Shown one piece after another: positions 56,916 to 62,863 of a DNA stretch of 64,000 nt. The translations under genes and the position numbers were made by a program. Source of the DNA: Rheinheimera sp. MM224 (GTDB lineage: Bacteria; Pseudomonadota; Gammaproteobacteria; Enterobacterales; Alteromonadaceae); assembly GCF_947090785.1 (NCBI RefSeq), contig NZ_OX352320.1:3275001-3339000 (forward strand), given 5' to 3'. The first letter of the stretch is position 1. Each line of letters opens with the position of its first letter. Below the pieces are notes generated by a model that saw only the letters and a program-made list of their open reading frames with translations, made no database searches and was not told the DNA's origin.

Positions 56916-57558
56916 TCGTGCTTTTGCCGTATTTGGCGGCACTTTTGACCCCATACATCTGGCGCATGTAGCCTGCGCACAGTACGTGTTAACACATTGT
57001 GCTGTGCGTGAAGTGCAACTAATGCCCTGCCACCTTCCCGCTCATCGCGCCAGTCCGGGCGTTAGTGCAAAACACAGAGCTGCGATGGTACAAATCGCAA
57101 TTGAGCATATTCAGGGTGTGTCTCTTCAGCCACTGGAGCTGAATAAACATAGCCCTTCGTACACTGTCGATAGTTTGCGTTTACTGCGTGAACAGTATCC
57201 ACGTGGCGGCTTGTTATTCGTGATGGGTATGGATTCATTGGCTTATTTTAAACAATGGCATCAGTGGCAGAGCATTTTGCAGCTGGCGCATCTGGTGGTC
57301 TGTCAAAGACCCGGCAGTACAGCCGAAGATGGTGATTGTCCGGTGCTGCTGCAGCAATTCGGCACAAACTCTCTGCAAGATCTGCATTTACTGGACTCTG
57401 GTAAAATTATGCTGCTGGATAACCCTCCTTTAGATCTGAGCGCAACCCGGGTTCGGGCCTTACTGGAAAAAAACCAGCAAAGCAGCGAACTAAATCAGCT
57501 GATACCAGCCGAAGTGCTGCAGTATATAAAAACAGAAAGGCTGTACAGCGGCATATAA
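56896..57558 (+). CDS. nadD: Nicotinate-nucleotide adenylyltransferase
   Basis: 220 residues, starting inside the end of holA. The nucleotidyltransferase motif FGGTFDPIHLAHV and the C-terminal LSATRVRALLE (ISSTxxR-type) are present, along with FVMGMDSLAYFKQWHQW. It makes deamido-NAD from nicotinate mononucleotide and ATP. Confidence 0.96.
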   Translation: MPTSRPDRAFAVFGGTFDPIHLAHVACAQYVLTHCAVREVQLMPCHLPAHRASPGVSAKHRAAMVQIAIEHIQGVSLQPLELNKHSPSYTVDSLRLLREQYPRGGLLFVMGMDSLAYFKQWHQWQSILQLAHLVVCQRPGSTAEDGDCPVLLQQFGTNSLQDLHLLDSGKIMLLDNPPLDLSATRVRALLEKNQQSSELNQLIPAEVLQYIKTERLYSGI

Positions 57559-57610
57559 GATCAAAACAAAAAGTGTTAACATGTCGCGTTTTTAGATCCC
57601 GGAGTTAAAA

Positions 57611-57931
57611 GTGCAAGCACAAGAGTTATTAGCCTTCGTCCTCGACAAGCTGGACGACATGAAAGCCAAGGATATCGTCAGTCTGGATGTCAGAGAAAAA
57701 TCCAATGTGACAGATTCCATGGTGATCTGCTCAGGCACCTCAAACCGTCATACCCGTTCTATCGCCGATCATCTGGCCAAAGAAGCTAAAAAAGCTGGCA
57801 TCAGTGTGTTAGGTATTGAAGGTTCTGGTTCAGGTGAATGGGTACTGATTGATTTGGGTGAAGTCATTGCCCATGTTATGCAGGAAGAAAGCCGCAGTTT
57901 TTACCAGTTAGAGAAACTCTGGAGCGTTTAA
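57611..57931 (+). CDS. rsfS: Ribosomal silencing factor RsfS
   Basis: 106 residues from a GTG start with GGAG 7 bases upstream. The family core is evident: [33 protein letters not shown], and [20 protein letters not shown]. RsfS binds ribosomal protein L14 and blocks subunit joining under starvation. rlmH starts 4 bases after its stop. Confidence 0.96.
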
Positions 57932-57935
57932 CGGC

Positions 57936-58406
57936 ATGAAGTTAATGCTGATTGCAGTCGGCACCAAAATGCCTGATTGGGTCACTACGGCTTATGAAGA
58001 ATATGCCCGTCGTTTTCCGCGTGATTTACCACTGGACTTGATTGAAATTCCGGCTGGTAAACGCGGGAAAAATGCGGACATTAAACGTATTCTGGAAACC
58101 GAAGGCGAAAAAATGCTGGCCGCTGTGCCCAAAGGCGCCCGCATTATTACGCTGGAGGTGGAAGGTGCCAACTGGAGTAGTCCACAACTGGCACAAAAAC
58201 TGACCCAATGGCAAATGGATGGTCGTGATGTCTGTTTATTGGTGGGCGGTCCTGAAGGCCTAGCTCCAGCTTGCATAGCTGCGAGTGAAGGCAAATGGTC
58301 GTTATCAGCTCTGACCATGCCACACCCTATGGTTCGGGTGGTATTGGCAGAAAGCTTGTACCGCGCCTGGAGCATTAGTACGAATCACCCTTACCATCGC
58401 GAATGA
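57936..58406 (+). CDS. rlmH: 23S rRNA (pseudouridine1915-N3)-methyltransferase
   Basis: 156 residues, the usual length. SPOUT knot signature [17 protein letters not shown] and the C-terminal [20 protein letters not shown] followed by HRE are conserved. The last codons and stop (CATCGCGAATGA) have a near copy (AACCGCGAATAA) 145 bases further on, next to mrdA, part of the duplicated junction. Confidence 0.96.
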
Positions 58407-58408
58407 CC

Positions 58409-58561
58409 ATGATGAAGCAGCTCCCATCCATTCAAACAGGCGCCACACAAAACCAGCTATTTCATCAAAAGGCCTGGTTTGATTTTGCTAAGGCACTGAT
58501 TTGTGGGAGTATCAACACCACCCCGCTCTCTCTTTATGTAACCGCGAATAACCATGATTAA
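58409..58561 (+). CDS. 50-codon ORF: diverged copy of the mrdA 5' end
   Basis: It starts 2 bases after the rlmH stop and overlaps the mrdA ATG by 8 bases. The peptide MKQLPSIQTGATQNQLFHQK and the following AWFDFAKALICGS align without gaps with the first 36 residues of PBP2 (IKKRPSIQDPAAESQMFNQR, ALFGFAVVLICFC). Similarity ends there, then an unrelated stretch leads to CTCTCTTTATGT and a second rlmH-like tail. It may be a remnant of the former mrdA, and if translated it could couple ribosomes onto mrdA. Confidence 0.7.
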   Translation: MMKQLPSIQTGATQNQLFHQKAWFDFAKALICGSINTTPLSLYVTANNHD

Positions 58562-60428
58562 AAAACGCCCGTCCATTCAGGATCCAGCAGCCGAAAGCCA
58601 GATGTTTAATCAAAGGGCTTTGTTTGGTTTTGCCGTAGTACTGATTTGTTTTTGTGTGGTGGTATTTAATCAATACAAGTTACAGGTGGTAATGCACGAG
58701 CACTATATGACCCGTGCAGATGGTAACCGCATTAAACTTATTCCACAGCCGCCAAATCGCGGCTTGATTTATGACCGCAACGGCATTTTATTAGCGGAAA
58801 ACCGCCCTATTCATTCAGTTGAACTTATTCCAGAACAAGTAAAAAACATTCCTGAAACTCTGGCTGAGATTGCCCGCCTGATTGAAATTACACCAGAGCG
58901 CCAGCAGGAATTTTTAAAAGAAGTGAAGTACCACAGACGTTTTGTCAGCATAGCCGTTAAAGAGCATCTGACCGAGCAGGAAGTGGCTATTATTGCGGTG
59001 AATCAACACAGACTAACTGGCGTTACTTTAGAAGCGCGTTTAACCCGGCATTATCCTTTTGGCGAGTTGTTCACTCATGCTTTAGGTTATATCGGCAAGA
59101 TTAATGCTAAAGAACTGGCAAAGCTGGAGGAAGAAGGCGTCAGCGCTAATTATGCGGCCAGCCGGGATATAGGCAAAATTGGTCTTGAGCGTTTTTACGA
59201 AAGCCAGTTGCATGGCCAGGTGGGTTTTGAGCAGGTGGAAGTGAATAACAGAGGCAGGGTGATCCGTATTCTGGACTCTAAACCTGCCACTTCAGGCGAT
59301 GATTTAATCTTGTCTATCGATATGAGCCTGCAGTTAAAAGCTCAGGAGCTGATTGGCGAAAACCGTGGCGCTATAGTAGCCATGGACCCACGTGATGGTG
59401 CTGTTTTAGCCTTTTACAGTAATCCAAGCTATGACCCGAATTTATTTGTACACGGCATCAGCGGTAAAAACTACCGTGAACTGCTGAATTCCCCTGACCG
59501 TCCACTGGTAAACCGTGTCACTCAGGGGGTGTATCCACCGGCTTCTACTATTAAGCCTCATATGGCTGTACTGGGACTAGAAAACGGCACTGTGACAGAA
59601 CAAACCCGTATAGCGGATCCTGGCTTTTATAAATTACCTAATTACAGTCGGGCTTATCGCGACCACATTAAATGGGGTCATGGCTGGGTTGATGTCTACA
59701 CTGCAATTACTAAAAGCTGTGACACTTATTTTTATGATTTAGCAGTGAAACTCGGTATAGATCGAATTTATGACTACATGAAAAAGTTTGGCTTTGGCTC
59801 CCGCACAGGCATAGATGTGATGGAAGAGAGCGCAGGTCTGATGCCATCTAAAGAATGGAAAAGAGCCAGACACAAACAAAGCTGGTATCCAGGCGATACG
59901 GTGTCCTTGGGTATAGGCCAAAGTTACTGGAGCGTAACTCCTATGCAACTTGCGTTGTCAACTGCGATTCTGGTGAACGATGGTCAACGACCTACACCGC
60001 ATATGGGTCGTTACTTCCGCAGCCAGGGCCAGGACACTAGTCTGATAGCACCGTTGCAAACCGCGATGGAAGTGAAAGATCACAATAACTGGCGTATTGC
60101 CAAAGAAGCTATGCGCCAGACCGTTATGGTTCAGGGTGGTACAGGTTTTAATGCCTTTAAAGGCATCAGTTACAGCGCTGCTGGTAAATCAGGTACAGCT
60201 CAGGTCATTAATATGGCTGCCAACCAAAAGTACAATGCAAATGCTATTAAAGAAATCCACCGGGATAATGCGATGTTTATCGCTTACGCTCCGGCAGAAA
60301 ACCCAAGCATTCTGGTGACTGTAGCTTTAGAAAACGCCGGTGGCGGTGGTGCCAACGCTGGTCCTATAGCCCGTAAAATGATGGACCACTACTTTACCCG
60401 TCAAAGTGCTGCGGGAGCACAACCATGA
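58554..60428 (+). CDS. mrdA: Penicillin-binding protein 2 (peptidoglycan transpeptidase)
   Basis: 624 residues. One N-terminal membrane helix (about 21-41), a pedestal/dimerisation domain (about 60-235) with RGLIYDRNGILLAENRP, and a transpeptidase domain with the three penicillin-binding motifs: YPPASTIKP (SxxK), KSCDT (SxN position) and AGKSGTAQ (KTG type). It cross-links peptidoglycan for rod-shaped growth together with RodA. The N-terminal start has a diverged copy upstream and its C-terminal [11 protein letters not shown] is repeated three more times downstream, so the gene is flanked by scars on both sides. Confidence 0.97.
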   Translation: MIKKRPSIQDPAAESQMFNQRALFGFAVVLICFCVVVFNQYKLQVVMHEHYMTRADGNRIKLIPQPPNRGLIYDRNGILLAENRPIHSVELIPEQVKNIPETLAEIARLIEITPERQQEFLKEVKYHRRFVSIAVKEHLTEQEVAIIAVNQHRLTGVTLEARLTRHYPFGELFTHALGYIGKINAKELAKLEEEGVSANYAASRDIGKIGLERFYESQLHGQVGFEQVEVNNRGRVIRILDSKPATSGDDLILSIDMSLQLKAQELIGENRGAIVAMDPRDGAVLAFYSNPSYDPNLFVHGISGKNYRELLNSPDRPLVNRVTQGVYPPASTIKPHMAVLGLENGTVTEQTRIADPGFYKLPNYSRAYRDHIKWGHGWVDVYTAITKSCDTYFYDLAVKLGIDRIYDYMKKFGFGSRTGIDVMEESAGLMPSKEWKRARHKQSWYPGDTVSLGIGQSYWSVTPMQLALSTAILVNDGQRPTPHMGRYFRSQGQDTSLIAPLQTAMEVKDHNNWRIAKEAMRQTVMVQGGTGFNAFKGISYSAAGKSGTAQVINMAANQKYNANAIKEIHRDNAMFIAYAPAENPSILVTVALENAGGGGANAGPIARKMMDHYFTRQSAAGAQP

Positions 60429-60532
60429 GCTTACAAAAAGATCTGAACTACAAGGCTGCAGAACCCAAAAGCCATCTTGATGGACCTCTCTTTATGTTTA
60501 CCCGTCAAAGCGCTGCGGGAGCACAACCATGA
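60425..60532 (+). CDS. Coupled 35-residue chimeric ORF, unit 1
   Basis: Starts in the ATGA that ends mrdA, 7 bases after GGGAG. The peptide [20 protein letters not shown] then PLFM resembles the RodA N terminus ([18 protein letters not shown]), and its last 11 residues [11 protein letters not shown] repeat the PBP2 C terminus. It ends in ATGA, opening unit 2. Whether the peptide is stable or has any role is unknown. Confidence 0.6.
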   Translation: MSLQKDLNYKAAEPKSHLDGPLFMFTRQSAAGAQP

Positions 60533-60636
60533 GCTTACAAAAAGATCTGAACTACAAGGCTGCAGAACCCAAAAGCCATCTTGATGGACCTCTCTTTATG
60601 TTTACCCGTCAAAGCGCTGCGGGAGCACAACCATGA
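60529..60636 (+). CDS. Coupled 35-residue chimeric ORF, unit 2
   Basis: Same peptide as unit 1, in the next reading frame because the unit length (104) is not a multiple of three. Start and stop both lie in ATGA overlaps with the neighbouring ORFs. Confidence 0.6.
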   Translation: MSLQKDLNYKAAEPKSHLDGPLFMFTRQSAAGAQP

Positions 60637-60740
60637 GCTTACAAAAAGATCTGAACTACAAGGCTGCAGAACCCAAAAGCCATCTTGATGGACCTCTCTT
60701 TATGTTTACCCGTCAAAGTGCGGCAGGAGCTCAACCATGA
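60633..60740 (+). CDS. Coupled 35-residue chimeric ORF, unit 3
   Basis: Same peptide again; the last 11 codons use the diverged fourth tail (AGTGCGGCAGGAGCTCAACC) and the stop overlaps the rodA ATG at 60737. Ribosomes that finish mrdA would need four successive re-initiations to reach rodA. Confidence 0.6.
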
Positions 60741-61852
60741 CCTTGCTAAAAGATCCGAGCCATAAAGGTTTTTTGGCTAAATTACATTTGGACGGTCCAT
60801 TGTTTGCTGGCCTGCTGGCCTTGTGCTGCACAGGTCTTTTTGTACTCTACAGTGCAAGCGGTCAGCATTGGGACATGATGGCTGCACACAGCACCCGTTT
60901 ACTTATTGCCTTTGGTGCCATGTTATTACTGGCTCAGGTGAAACCTCAGACCTTTAGCTTTTGGGCCGTACCGTTGTTTTTAGCGGGTACAGCTATGCTG
61001 GTGATGGTGCTGGCATTTGGTCATATAGGCAAAGGCGCACAACGTTGGCTGGACTTAGGTTTTATGAAGTTTCAGCCTTCAGAAGTGATGAAACTGGCTG
61101 TGCCTATGGCTGTCGCCTGGTATGTATCTTCTCACCCTTTGCCATTGAAGTTTAAGCACTTGATTATTGGTTTTATCATGTGCGCCATCCCTACTGTGCT
61201 GATACAACAACAACCGGATTTAGGCACCTCAATTCTGATTTTTGTCGCCGGGGTTTTTGTGCTTTTTTTAGGTGGTATGAGCTGGCGAATTATTACCGCC
61301 ATCGCCATGATTATTCCGGTAGCGTCTTATACGATGTGGTTGTTTTTTATGCACGACTACCAAAAGCGCCGGGTACTGACTTTTTTAAATCCTGAGAGTG
61401 ACCCGCTTGGCTCGGGTTATCATATTATTCAGTCAAAAATTGCCATAGGTTCAGGTGGTTTTGAAGGTAAAGGCTGGATGCATGGCACCCAGTCACAGCT
61501 GGAGTTTTTACCTGAACGTCATACTGACTTTATATTTTCGGTGTTCAGTGAAGAGCTGGGCATGATAGGTGTGTTATTTTTGCTGGCCTTGTATGCCTTT
61601 ATTATTGCCCGTGGTTTGATTATCGCCAGCCGTGCACAGGACAACTTCAGTAAACTGCTGGCAGGCAGCATTACTCTGACATTCTTTGTCTACGTGTTCG
61701 TTAACATTGGTATGGTATCAGGCTTGTTACCAGTGGTCGGCGTGCCTCTGCCTTTGATTAGCTACGGTGGGACATCCATGGTTACACTGATGGCTGGTTT
61801 TGGTATTCTAATGTCAATCAGCACCCATAAACGACTTTTAGCTCAGCAGTAG
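60737..61852 (+). CDS. rodA: Rod shape-determining SEDS glycosyltransferase
   Basis: 371 residues with about ten membrane helices. SEDS family segments: [34 protein letters not shown], and the C-terminal [20 protein letters not shown]. RodA polymerises glycan strands with PBP2 in the elongasome. The start ATG overlaps the stop of the last repeat ORF; AGGAG from the fourth mrdA tail is its Shine-Dalgarno. The first 23 residues differ from the rodA-like heads in the repeats. Confidence 0.97.
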
Positions 61853-61861
61853 AAAGAATCA

Positions 61862-62863
61862 ATGATAAAAAAAATAAGCGCTTTATGTTGTACTCTGATG
61901 CTGGCTTCCTGTTCACAAACACCAGAGCCAAAATCAGCAGCCACTGAAACCAGCCCTGGTTGGGAAGAGCCAAACAAAGGCCGTTACTCACAAGCAACAG
62001 ACAGTCACCCGACTCGTCTGCCGACCTTGTTGGAGATGACCGATCCAGAACCCCGTGCAGAAGCCTTAAGCCGCGGTGGTAATAAACCTTATAATATTTA
62101 TGGCGTGGACTATTCACCCCGTACCGACCTGATGGAATACAAAGAAAGTGGCATTGCCTCCTGGTATGGTCATAAGTTTCATGGTCATCTGACCTCCAAT
62201 GGTGAAACTTATAATGTATTTGCCATGTCTGCTGCACATAAAACCTTGCCTTTACCGTCTTATGTCAGGGTCACCAACCTCGACAACGGTAAATCCGCCG
62301 TGGTACGGGTGAACGATCGTGGCCCTTTTCATAACGACAGAGTGATCGACTTATCTTATTCTGCCGCTTATAAAATTGGCATGATGGGCAAAGGTACAGC
62401 CCGTGTTCAGGTGGAACTGTTAGCCTCGCCAGCCATGACCAGTCAGGAAAGTTATGCCATGGGTTTAGGCAGCAGAGGTAATCAGTTTGAAGAAACGACC
62501 ATAGCCTCTAACCCGGCAGGACCTAGACCAGGTAGTGTTGCAGCCCCTGTTGCAGCTGTGGCTTCTGCACCAGTACGCTCAGCTCCAGCGGCGGCAGTAT
62601 CTGCCCCTGTATCCACTGCCAGCAAAGTGACAGGCTGTTTTATTCAACTGGTCGCCAGCAGTAACAGAGAAAAACTACAAAAGCTAGGTGCAGATCTGCA
62701 GCAGCAATGGTCAGTCTCTACACAAATTAATGATGGCAACGGAATTTTCCGGTTATTGGCAGGTCCAATGCCATCAGCGGCCGAAGCGAACAGCTGGCTG
62801 GAACGTTTTAAAAGTGCCGATTATCCGTCGGCTTATATTACAGATAAAAAAAGCTGTGGTTAA
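61862..62863 (+). CDS. rlpA: Septal ring lytic transglycosylase RlpA
   Basis: 333 residues. Lipoprotein signal with lipobox LASC. The double-psi beta-barrel (about 95-185) shows GIASWYGHKFHGHLTSNGE, with the catalytic-type Glu, and VVRVNDRGPFHNDRVIDLS with the Asp. An Ala/Pro/Val-rich linker (about 215-255) leads to a C-terminal SPOR domain (about 258-330) that binds denuded glycans at the septum. It begins 9 bases after rodA. Confidence 0.94.
   Translation: MIKKISALCCTLMLASCSQTPEPKSAATETSPGWEEPNKGRYSQATDSHPTRLPTLLEMTDPEPRAEALSRGGNKPYNIYGVDYSPRTDLMEYKESGIASWYGHKFHGHLTSNGETYNVFAMSAAHKTLPLPSYVRVTNLDNGKSAVVRVNDRGPFHNDRVIDLSYSAAYKIGMMGKGTARVQVELLASPAMTSQESYAMGLGSRGNQFEETTIASNPAGPRPGSVAAPVAAVASAPVRSAPAAAVSAPVSTASKVTGCFIQLVASSNREKLQKLGADLQQQWSVSTQINDGNGIFRLLAGPMPSAAEANSWLERFKSADYPSAYITDKKSCG

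Follow-up and report, generated by a model that had tools for sequence, protein, structure and literature searches.

Candidate ribosome-relay reading frames of junction origin in the mrdA operon of Rheinheimera

Why should mrdA and rodA of Rheinheimera sp. MM224 be separated by three tandem mini-genes that encode one and the same 35-amino acid peptide, and what would keep such mini-genes in place? The window analyzed here is a stretch of 64,000 nucleotides of contig NZ_OX352320.1, and all positions below are positions within it. We think it probable that this array, together with a second kind of mini-ORF that lies between rlmH and mrdA, consists of junction-born relay ORFs, that is, duplicates of the gene junctions at which they lie that would be kept for handing ribosomes downstream by termination-reinitiation and not for the peptides that they encode. 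The features concerned are:

57936..58406, + strand: rlmH, SPOUT methyltransferase (Pfam PF02590, E 6e-48), upstream partner of the first candidate relay
58403..58561, + strand: mini1, candidate 52-aa relay ORF; ATGA overlap with the rlmH stop, and a closing TAA that gives an overlap of 8 with the start of mrdA
58554..60428, + strand: mrdA, PBP2 transpeptidase, 624 aa (Pfam PF00905, E 9.3e-67, and PF03717)
60393..60428, + strand: mrdA tail, 11 aa plus stop, source of the tail of every unit; both GGGAG and the ATGA at which relay copy 1 starts lie in it
60425..60532, + strand: mini2 copy 1, candidate 35-aa relay ORF (from the ORF list, the repeat and the comparison with relatives)
60529..60636, + strand: mini2 copy 2, candidate 35-aa relay ORF (same three sources)
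60633..60740, + strand: mini2 copy 3, candidate 35-aa relay ORF; its tail has AGGAG 7 nt 5' of the rodA ATG
60737..61852, + strand: rodA, 371 aa, downstream partner (Pfam PF01098, E 3.4e-110)

The array between mrdA and rodA

A sequence-only reading of this DNA had described three 104-bp repeats with 35-codon ORFs at this place, and Tandem Repeats Finder and the ORF coordinates bear it out. Three 104-bp units lie head-to-tail at 60393–60740 and separate mrdA from rodA (repeat row 60393–60755, period 104, 3.5 copies, 96% matches, score 670; the window yields four rows in all, and the runner-up scores only 68). Each unit is a 35-codon ORF with an ATGA overlap at its start and at its end, and ATGA is present at every junction from mrdA through the three mini2 ORFs to rodA, the reading frame shifting by -1 at each, just as that reading had it. 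The copies had also been called nearly identical; this holds for the peptide, which is the same in all three, and for the heads, which are identical, but the tails carry a few synonymous differences, and that of the third unit differs from the others at synonymous sites and has AGGAG in place of GGGAG before rodA. Among the close relatives considered below, AGGAG precedes rodA in 7/7 species with inserts vs 1/5 without (Fisher p = 0.01, kinship ignored). The array occurs once in the complete, single-contig genome of 4,642,311 bp.

Two other kinds of element were considered for the array and rejected. A structured RNA is not indicated, as both the array (z 0.65) and the mini2 unit (z 0.13) fold with no unusual stability and Rfam gives nothing at gathering score across 57500–62000. 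Hits for an internal promoter or terminator in 58300–61000 are at the level of shuffled sequence, and none lies inside the array.

Residues 2–23 of the window mini2 align with RodA without gaps and agree at 12/22 positions (permutation p = 0.00005), and the mini2 end is the 11-aa PBP2 C-terminus. Judged from both ends, then, mini2 is a duplicated mrdA-rodA junction. The claim that this junction is repeated almost perfectly needs refining at the head, which is not the rodA start of today and matches it at only 38/65 nt (27 differ) and, as just given, at 12/22 aa. Likeness of the mini2 head to RodA positions 2–23 recurs in the related species that have a unit, with permutation p <= 0.00025 in 6/7 and 0.0052 in the seventh (G009), and synonymous differences between mini2 and rodA heads are saturated in most of them. 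The parent unit is thus an old duplicate composed of mrdA tail and rodA head that was amplified recently in the window.

The genus was searched in 22 genomes, all of which contain rodA; 12 belong to a close clade (the window's own genome included) and ten are more distant. The array does have counterparts in related genomes, where the sequence-only reading had suggested looking: units are present in 7/12 close species in one, two or three copies, with three in the window's genome (G000), two in G001 and one each in G012, G002, G005, G009 and G018, and mini2 is absent from G020, G015, G003, G014 and G006. Four species have units of 104 bp and three have units of 101 bp, and all ten copies have ATGA at both ends (spacing -4/-4). 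Copies are nearly identical within G000 and within G001, whereas the two species are ∼12% apart, so the copies were gained recently. The order of mini2 gains and losses may be read from a two-gene tree (mrdA and rodA, midpoint-rooted, weak forks, one genome per species), which polarizes them without certainty. Peptides of the mini2 family from further contigs fall into clusters whose members outnumber their contigs (P0002, seven members on four contigs; P0003, two members on one contig), which suggests that multi-copy arrays may exist elsewhere.

By RodA, the closest named relatives are R. tangshanensis (98%), Rheinheimera sp. YQF-1 (95%) and Rheinheimera sp. A13L (95%); R. tangshanensis and A13L have a single mrdA-rodA junction, and YQF-1 has one 101-bp unit. 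Among 80 named loci, in which gene starts were chosen by a heuristic and the spacing was taken from all 80, a mini-ORF of the mini2 kind was found between mrdA and rodA only in YQF-1. Odd mrdA-rodA spacings were noted in L035, L065 and L068. In the distant members of the genus PBP2 continues for 80–144 residues beyond the match and the mrdA frame meets or overruns the rodA start, which leaves no space for mini2 in 10/10 of them (rodA start placed in all but G004 and G007).

A second mini-ORF between rlmH and mrdA

The sequence-only reading of the array makes no mention of the mini-ORF that lies on the other side of mrdA. The gap between rlmH and mrdA is 129–151 nt long and holds mini1 in 11/12 close species (R. 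tangshanensis, without mini2, has mini1 as well); the twelfth, G002, has a bare +2 junction with no mini1, and as this species is nested in the clade its junction looks like the result of an exact mini1 loss. No mini1 was found in 8/8 distant genus members judged (of ten; G013, whose contig is without rlmH, and G017 were left out), where the rlmH-mrdA spacing is +2 or +3. Where its make-up is legible, mini1 consists of an MrdA-like head and an RlmH-like tail; in G005, for example, the head reads MIKKCSSIQTIPTQSQVFNQRALYDFAKTLICGSISTNHPLFAYNRE vs MIKKRPSIQDPAAESQMFNQRALFGFAV in MrdA and is followed by an RlmH-like tail. Likeness of the heads to the N-terminus of MrdA has p = 0.0005 in 8/11 species and 0.019 in G014; in G003 the value is 0.17 (0.0175 by local alignment), and in G009 the likeness to the MrdA N-terminus is not significant by either alignment. 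Tails resemble RlmH at p <= 0.008 in 4/11 species. The window's own mini1, which has an alternative in-frame start at 58409 (+2), gives p = 0.0005 against the MrdA N-terminus and 0.19 against the RlmH C-terminus; its head thus resembles that of MrdA, and the likeness of its tail to RlmH has lost significance in this species.

Despite several indels, mini1 starts at -4, +2, +5 or +8 from the rlmH stop in the 11 species (the outlying values being +5 in G020 and +8 in G009) and stops at +2 or -8 relative to the start of mrdA, five species ending at the overlap ATGATTAA rather than at +2. In most species of the clade, inspection by eye shows no Shine-Dalgarno (SD)-like motif ahead of mrdA or mini1, which would make mrdA translation dependent on coupling.

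The rlmH-mrdA spacing could be judged in 72/80 named loci, and it exceeds 15 nt in 34. A test for bridging by an ORF was applied to 21 of these 34 gaps, picked after inspection (Colwelliaceae 7, Aeromonas 4, Shewanella 10), and to the 11 of the clade, 32 in all; the 13 gaps outside the test are those of L002–L004 (R. tangshanensis, YQF-1 and A13L), which repeat clade members, and ten others. In Colwelliaceae 7/7 gaps are bridged vs 1.91 expected, and in Colwellia L026 and L032 the heads of the ORFs resemble MrdA (p = 0.00005 and 0.0004, respectively); the heads in L018 and L027 are without likeness to MrdA. In Aeromonas 4/4 gaps are bridged vs 2.45 expected, hardly above chance, and there the tail of RlmH is copied over 16 aa in A. 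veronii L072 (p = 0.00005; A. dhakensis L055 is at 0.027). In Shewanella 4/10 gaps are bridged vs 0.82 expected, by ORFs with TTG starts, and mrdA is preceded by GGAG or GGGG SD-like motifs. By these likenesses the Colwellia ORFs appear to be independent relay cases and one Aeromonas ORF is a likely one, so that junction duplication at rlmH-mrdA seems to have occurred more than once.

Within the window's own genome, a scan of 464 kb (10%; the window and 20 further stretches) covered 460 same-strand gene pairs, and 16 ORFs passed a lenient coupling rule that is blind to chains and therefore misses the triple array itself. Only for the ORF before mrdA did likeness to the start of the next gene give the lowest p that could be reached (0.0025). 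One further ORF was at p 0.01. No other convincing junction-born relay was found in this 464-kb sample, and a genome-wide habit of junction duplication was accordingly rejected. A mosaic origin of the locus was likewise set aside; sliding distances differ only modestly along it, and therefore no claim of recombination is made.

Open frames and near-neutral residues

In 18/18 units, taking one copy per species per junction, the relay frame is free of stop codons, whereas the other two frames are stop-free in 0/18 and 2/18 and hold 63 and 51 stops in total. For mini1, neutral evolution was simulated on one midpoint-rooted tree of mrdA and rodA third positions, from a guessed ancestor and with substitutions only. 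At the observed mean distance of 0.381 all 11 frames remained open in 0/3000 runs (average 3.03/11 open), at 0.366 in 1/3000 runs, at 0.28 in 0.001 of 1000 runs and at 0.46 in 0 of 1000. When the interiors of the mini1 gaps are shuffled, 1.02/11 are expected to be bridged vs 11/11 observed. For mini2 alone a star estimate (the product over five lineages) gives 0.009–0.016, and its openness test is by itself modest (about 0.01).

The residues, on the other hand, change at a near-neutral rate, and there is no clear selection on them. Over seven species pairs, changes in the units come to 28.5 synonymous and 70.5 nonsynonymous, a nonsynonymous fraction of 0.712, where 0.743 is expected under neutrality at kappa 2 and 0.711 at kappa 4; with no transition bias (kappa 1), 18/400 neutral runs fall at or under the observed fraction, so a mild constraint on residues is possible. 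In the corresponding mrdA and rodA heads changes are mostly synonymous. The 10-aa tail of the unit beside rodA is unchanged in four species and shows 13 synonymous and 0 nonsynonymous differences from the mrdA tail; gene conversion with the mrdA tail or selection on the peptide could account for this.

The proposed relay, its rivals and known systems

That mrdA, the mini-ORFs and rodA form a chain of coupled frames, as the sequence-only reading had proposed, is supported by the sequence and by the comparison alike: frames have stayed open and spacing has been kept while residues drift, and this is so at two junctions. From this anatomy, the junction ancestry of most units and the copy differences between species, the following course of events can be proposed. 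A gene junction would be duplicated locally and in tandem, the copy taking in the last ∼35–40 nt of the upstream gene and the first 70–105 nt of the downstream gene, and since each duplicate has its own start and the upstream gene's stop in the right frame, the chain would be unbroken. A ribosome finishing rlmH or mrdA would restart on the mini-ORF, terminate at the next junction and restart on mrdA or rodA; we infer both this passage of ribosomes by termination-reinitiation and the dependence of downstream translation on it. Selection would then hold the mini-ORF open and its ends close to the neighboring genes, presumably because closing it would cut the ribosome supply to the next gene, and its residues would drift. 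Flanking repeats may mediate gain and loss of copies, and loss may re-create the original junction; a tolerated loss would have to be exact, and recombination between the repeated tails could supply it.

Several observations count against this relay. The bridging in Aeromonas is near chance, the mini2 openness test alone is modest, and the hint of mild constraint at kappa 1 and the constant 10-aa tail beside rodA could reflect selection on the peptide. AGGAG precedes rodA in all seven insert-bearing species, and rodA might therefore initiate without coupling. In Shewanella, bridging is above expectation although mrdA has SD-like motifs. Finally, the mini1 starts at +5 and +8 and its ends at -8 fall outside the range given as most efficient in passages of a review of coupling (PMC12548453).

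If the insert were inert, rodA would use its own SD and the ORFs would be open merely from their recent origin. AGGAG does stand 7 nt before rodA, and the three window copies are recent, but the parent unit is old (it is saturated at synonymous sites against the rodA head in most species and is common to G000 and G001), 18/18 units are open, and mini1, which lies ahead of an mrdA without visible SD, has the same pattern; we consider inertness unlikely. A function as micropeptides, acting for example on the RodA-PBP2 complex whose fragments they carry, would explain why openness and translation signals are conserved, and it could draw on the 10-aa tail that is constant in four species despite 13 synonymous differences and on the mini2 heads of G005 and G018, which differ by two nonsynonymous and four synonymous changes. 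However, residue change over the seven pairs is near-neutral, the mini1 head has lost its likeness to MrdA in G009 and retains little in G003, mini2 is missing from 5/12 and mini1 from 1/12 close species, and neither window peptide (mini1 or mini2) matches a Pfam family; this too is an unlikely explanation, perhaps a little more so.

A copy-number switch or rheostat, in which each step shifts RodA relative to PBP2 and slippage alters the number of copies within a population, is in our judgment an improbable reading of the array; the sequence-only reading had suggested such a role as a possibility. Species do range from 0 to 3 copies, and copies are near-identical within G000 and within G001, species that are ∼12% apart; nevertheless, the array is missing from 5/12 close species, and three copies of a 104-bp unit do not make a classical short-repeat contingency locus. 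A passive relay accounts for the data more sparingly than either a switch or a tuning of RodA against PBP2. A mobile element inserting at the start codons of coupled genes would share its architecture, in which a short unit carries an ORF with coupling at -4, with the mycobacterial MIRUs discussed below. Such an origin is very improbable: the unit sequences come from the local flanking genes, the two junctions carry different sequences, and when four unit types (mini2 of G000, G009 and G018, mini1 of G000) were sought as dispersed copies across 12 genomes (E <= 0.1), none of full length turned up at a second locus, long matches being confined to the unit's own junction and those elsewhere short and weak. 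Least probable of all, to the point of being hardly credible, is that the three copies are an assembly artefact, as the genome is a complete single contig whose copies differ at a few sites, and as other species' assemblies contain one or two units (two in G001) and the peptide clusters suggest multi-copy arrays.

If the relay is real, the locus is a natural experiment on translational coupling, in which the requirements (an open frame, and proximity of stop and start) can be read from the sequence. It would mean that an insertion of no use can become trapped in an operon from which it is hard to remove, that non-functional ORFs can remain translated over long times, and that hypothetical mini-genes between operon genes need no functional protein to explain them; for cell-wall biology it raises the question of whether the extra steps alter the PBP2:RodA ratio. 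More tentatively, coupling-dependent junctions might serve as a gene nursery, in which duplicates whose loss would harm the next gene are held open and translated while they drift, and so become a source of new small-protein functions. The Rheinheimera mrdA operon would then, conceivably, display the stages: in G005 the MrdA head is still plainly copied, in G003 it is barely recognizable, and in G009 the ORF has no recognizable ancestry, with Colwellia perhaps having arrived there independently.

Several known systems resemble this arrangement in part. Partial tandem gene duplications and variable-number tandem repeats (VNTRs) at gene boundaries arise by local tandem duplication and later change in copy number, as the relay units appear to have done; the relay units differ in that, long after divergence, their frame is still open and each end still has its coupling signals. 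MIRUs, the mycobacterial interspersed repetitive units, were reportedly described by Supply et al. in 1997. Their tandem copies vary in number, as do those seen here (0, 1, 2 or 3 between species). As portrayed in passages of the review (PMC12548453), a MIRU is short and repetitive and contains an ORF that is coupled, at a spacing of -4, to the gene downstream; its insertion is thought to disturb expression minimally, and MIRUs are interspersed and apparently mobile. On spacing, mini2 (10 copies, seven species) is likewise a short intergenic unit whose ORF lies at -4 at both ends and would be coupled there. Unlike MIRUs, relay units of the four types checked in 12 genomes are not dispersed; they are built from their own flanking genes and stay at that junction, their sequences differ by junction and by species, and mini1 ends at +2 or -8 rather than -4.

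For termination-reinitiation itself, the same passages of the review give distances of -4 to +3 as most efficient and note an enrichment of -8 (PMC12548453), and in part of another study removal of the SD motif lowered reinitiation in 4/5 E. coli gene pairs (PMC6728339). The overlaps and short spacings found here, -4/-4 for mini2 and starts at -4, +2, +5 and +8 with ends at +2 or -8 for mini1, would suit such a process, and an SD-like motif stands ahead of the mini2 and rodA starts; the cases in the passages cited couple two genes (PMC6728339, PMC12548453), whereas here one to three drifting extra ORFs are interposed, and some mini1 starts (+5 and +8) exceed the most efficient distances. Upstream ORFs and bicistronic designs, in which short ORFs deliver ribosomes (PMC12548453, in the portion cited), share with the putative relay a short ORF that serves to supply the following gene with ribosomes; relay ORFs would differ in coming from junction duplication within an operon and in lying between two conserved genes. 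A literature search over titles and abstract openings, with few subscription papers covered, found no description of junction-born relay ORFs at mrdA. Relative to MIRUs, with which they have similar working parts, relay ORFs that are locally born and, in the four types checked, not dispersed would be new.

The junction between rlmH and mrdA

The window holds a second mini-ORF, junction-born like the units between mrdA and rodA:
58403-58561, located between rlmH and mrdA; its head is similar to that of MrdA.
When this junction was compared across the clade, inserts carrying a mini-ORF were found between rlmH and mrdA in 11 of the 12 close species.

Mini-ORFs with MrdA-like heads also lie between rlmH and mrdA at two Colwellia loci (L026 and L032; 39 and 41 aa), and the stop of each is at -1 relative to mrdA. 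In further Colwelliaceae the gap is likewise bridged by ORFs, and in the two of these tested (L018 and L027) no MrdA likeness was found in the bridging ORFs. In Aeromonas veronii (L072) a 16-aa ORF, MRLWSLTSHIHPYHRE, lies directly 3' of the rlmH stop and duplicates the RlmH C-terminus. In the records of Candidatus Enterovibrio escacola (L022) and E. coralii (L062), the matched rlmH frame stops early.

The Shine-Dalgarno-like motif before rodA

Two window segments were compared for such a motif:
60705-60740, the end of the third unit, before rodA
60393-60428, the segment set against it
AGGAG lies 5' of rodA in all seven species with mrdA-rodA inserts versus one of the five insert-free species (Fisher p 0.01, kinship ignored).

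The mrdA-rodA junction outside the close clade

In a gammaproteobacterial MAG (L065), a 28-aa ORF sits between mrdA and rodA with spacings of -4 and +1, and it does not resemble the beginning of RodA (p 0.53). In all ten distant genus members (G004, G007, G008, G010, G011, G013, G016, G017, G019, and G021; loci L094-L103 and L131-L139), the PBP2 frame runs 80-144 residues beyond the matched end, a C-terminal extension that the close clade lacks.
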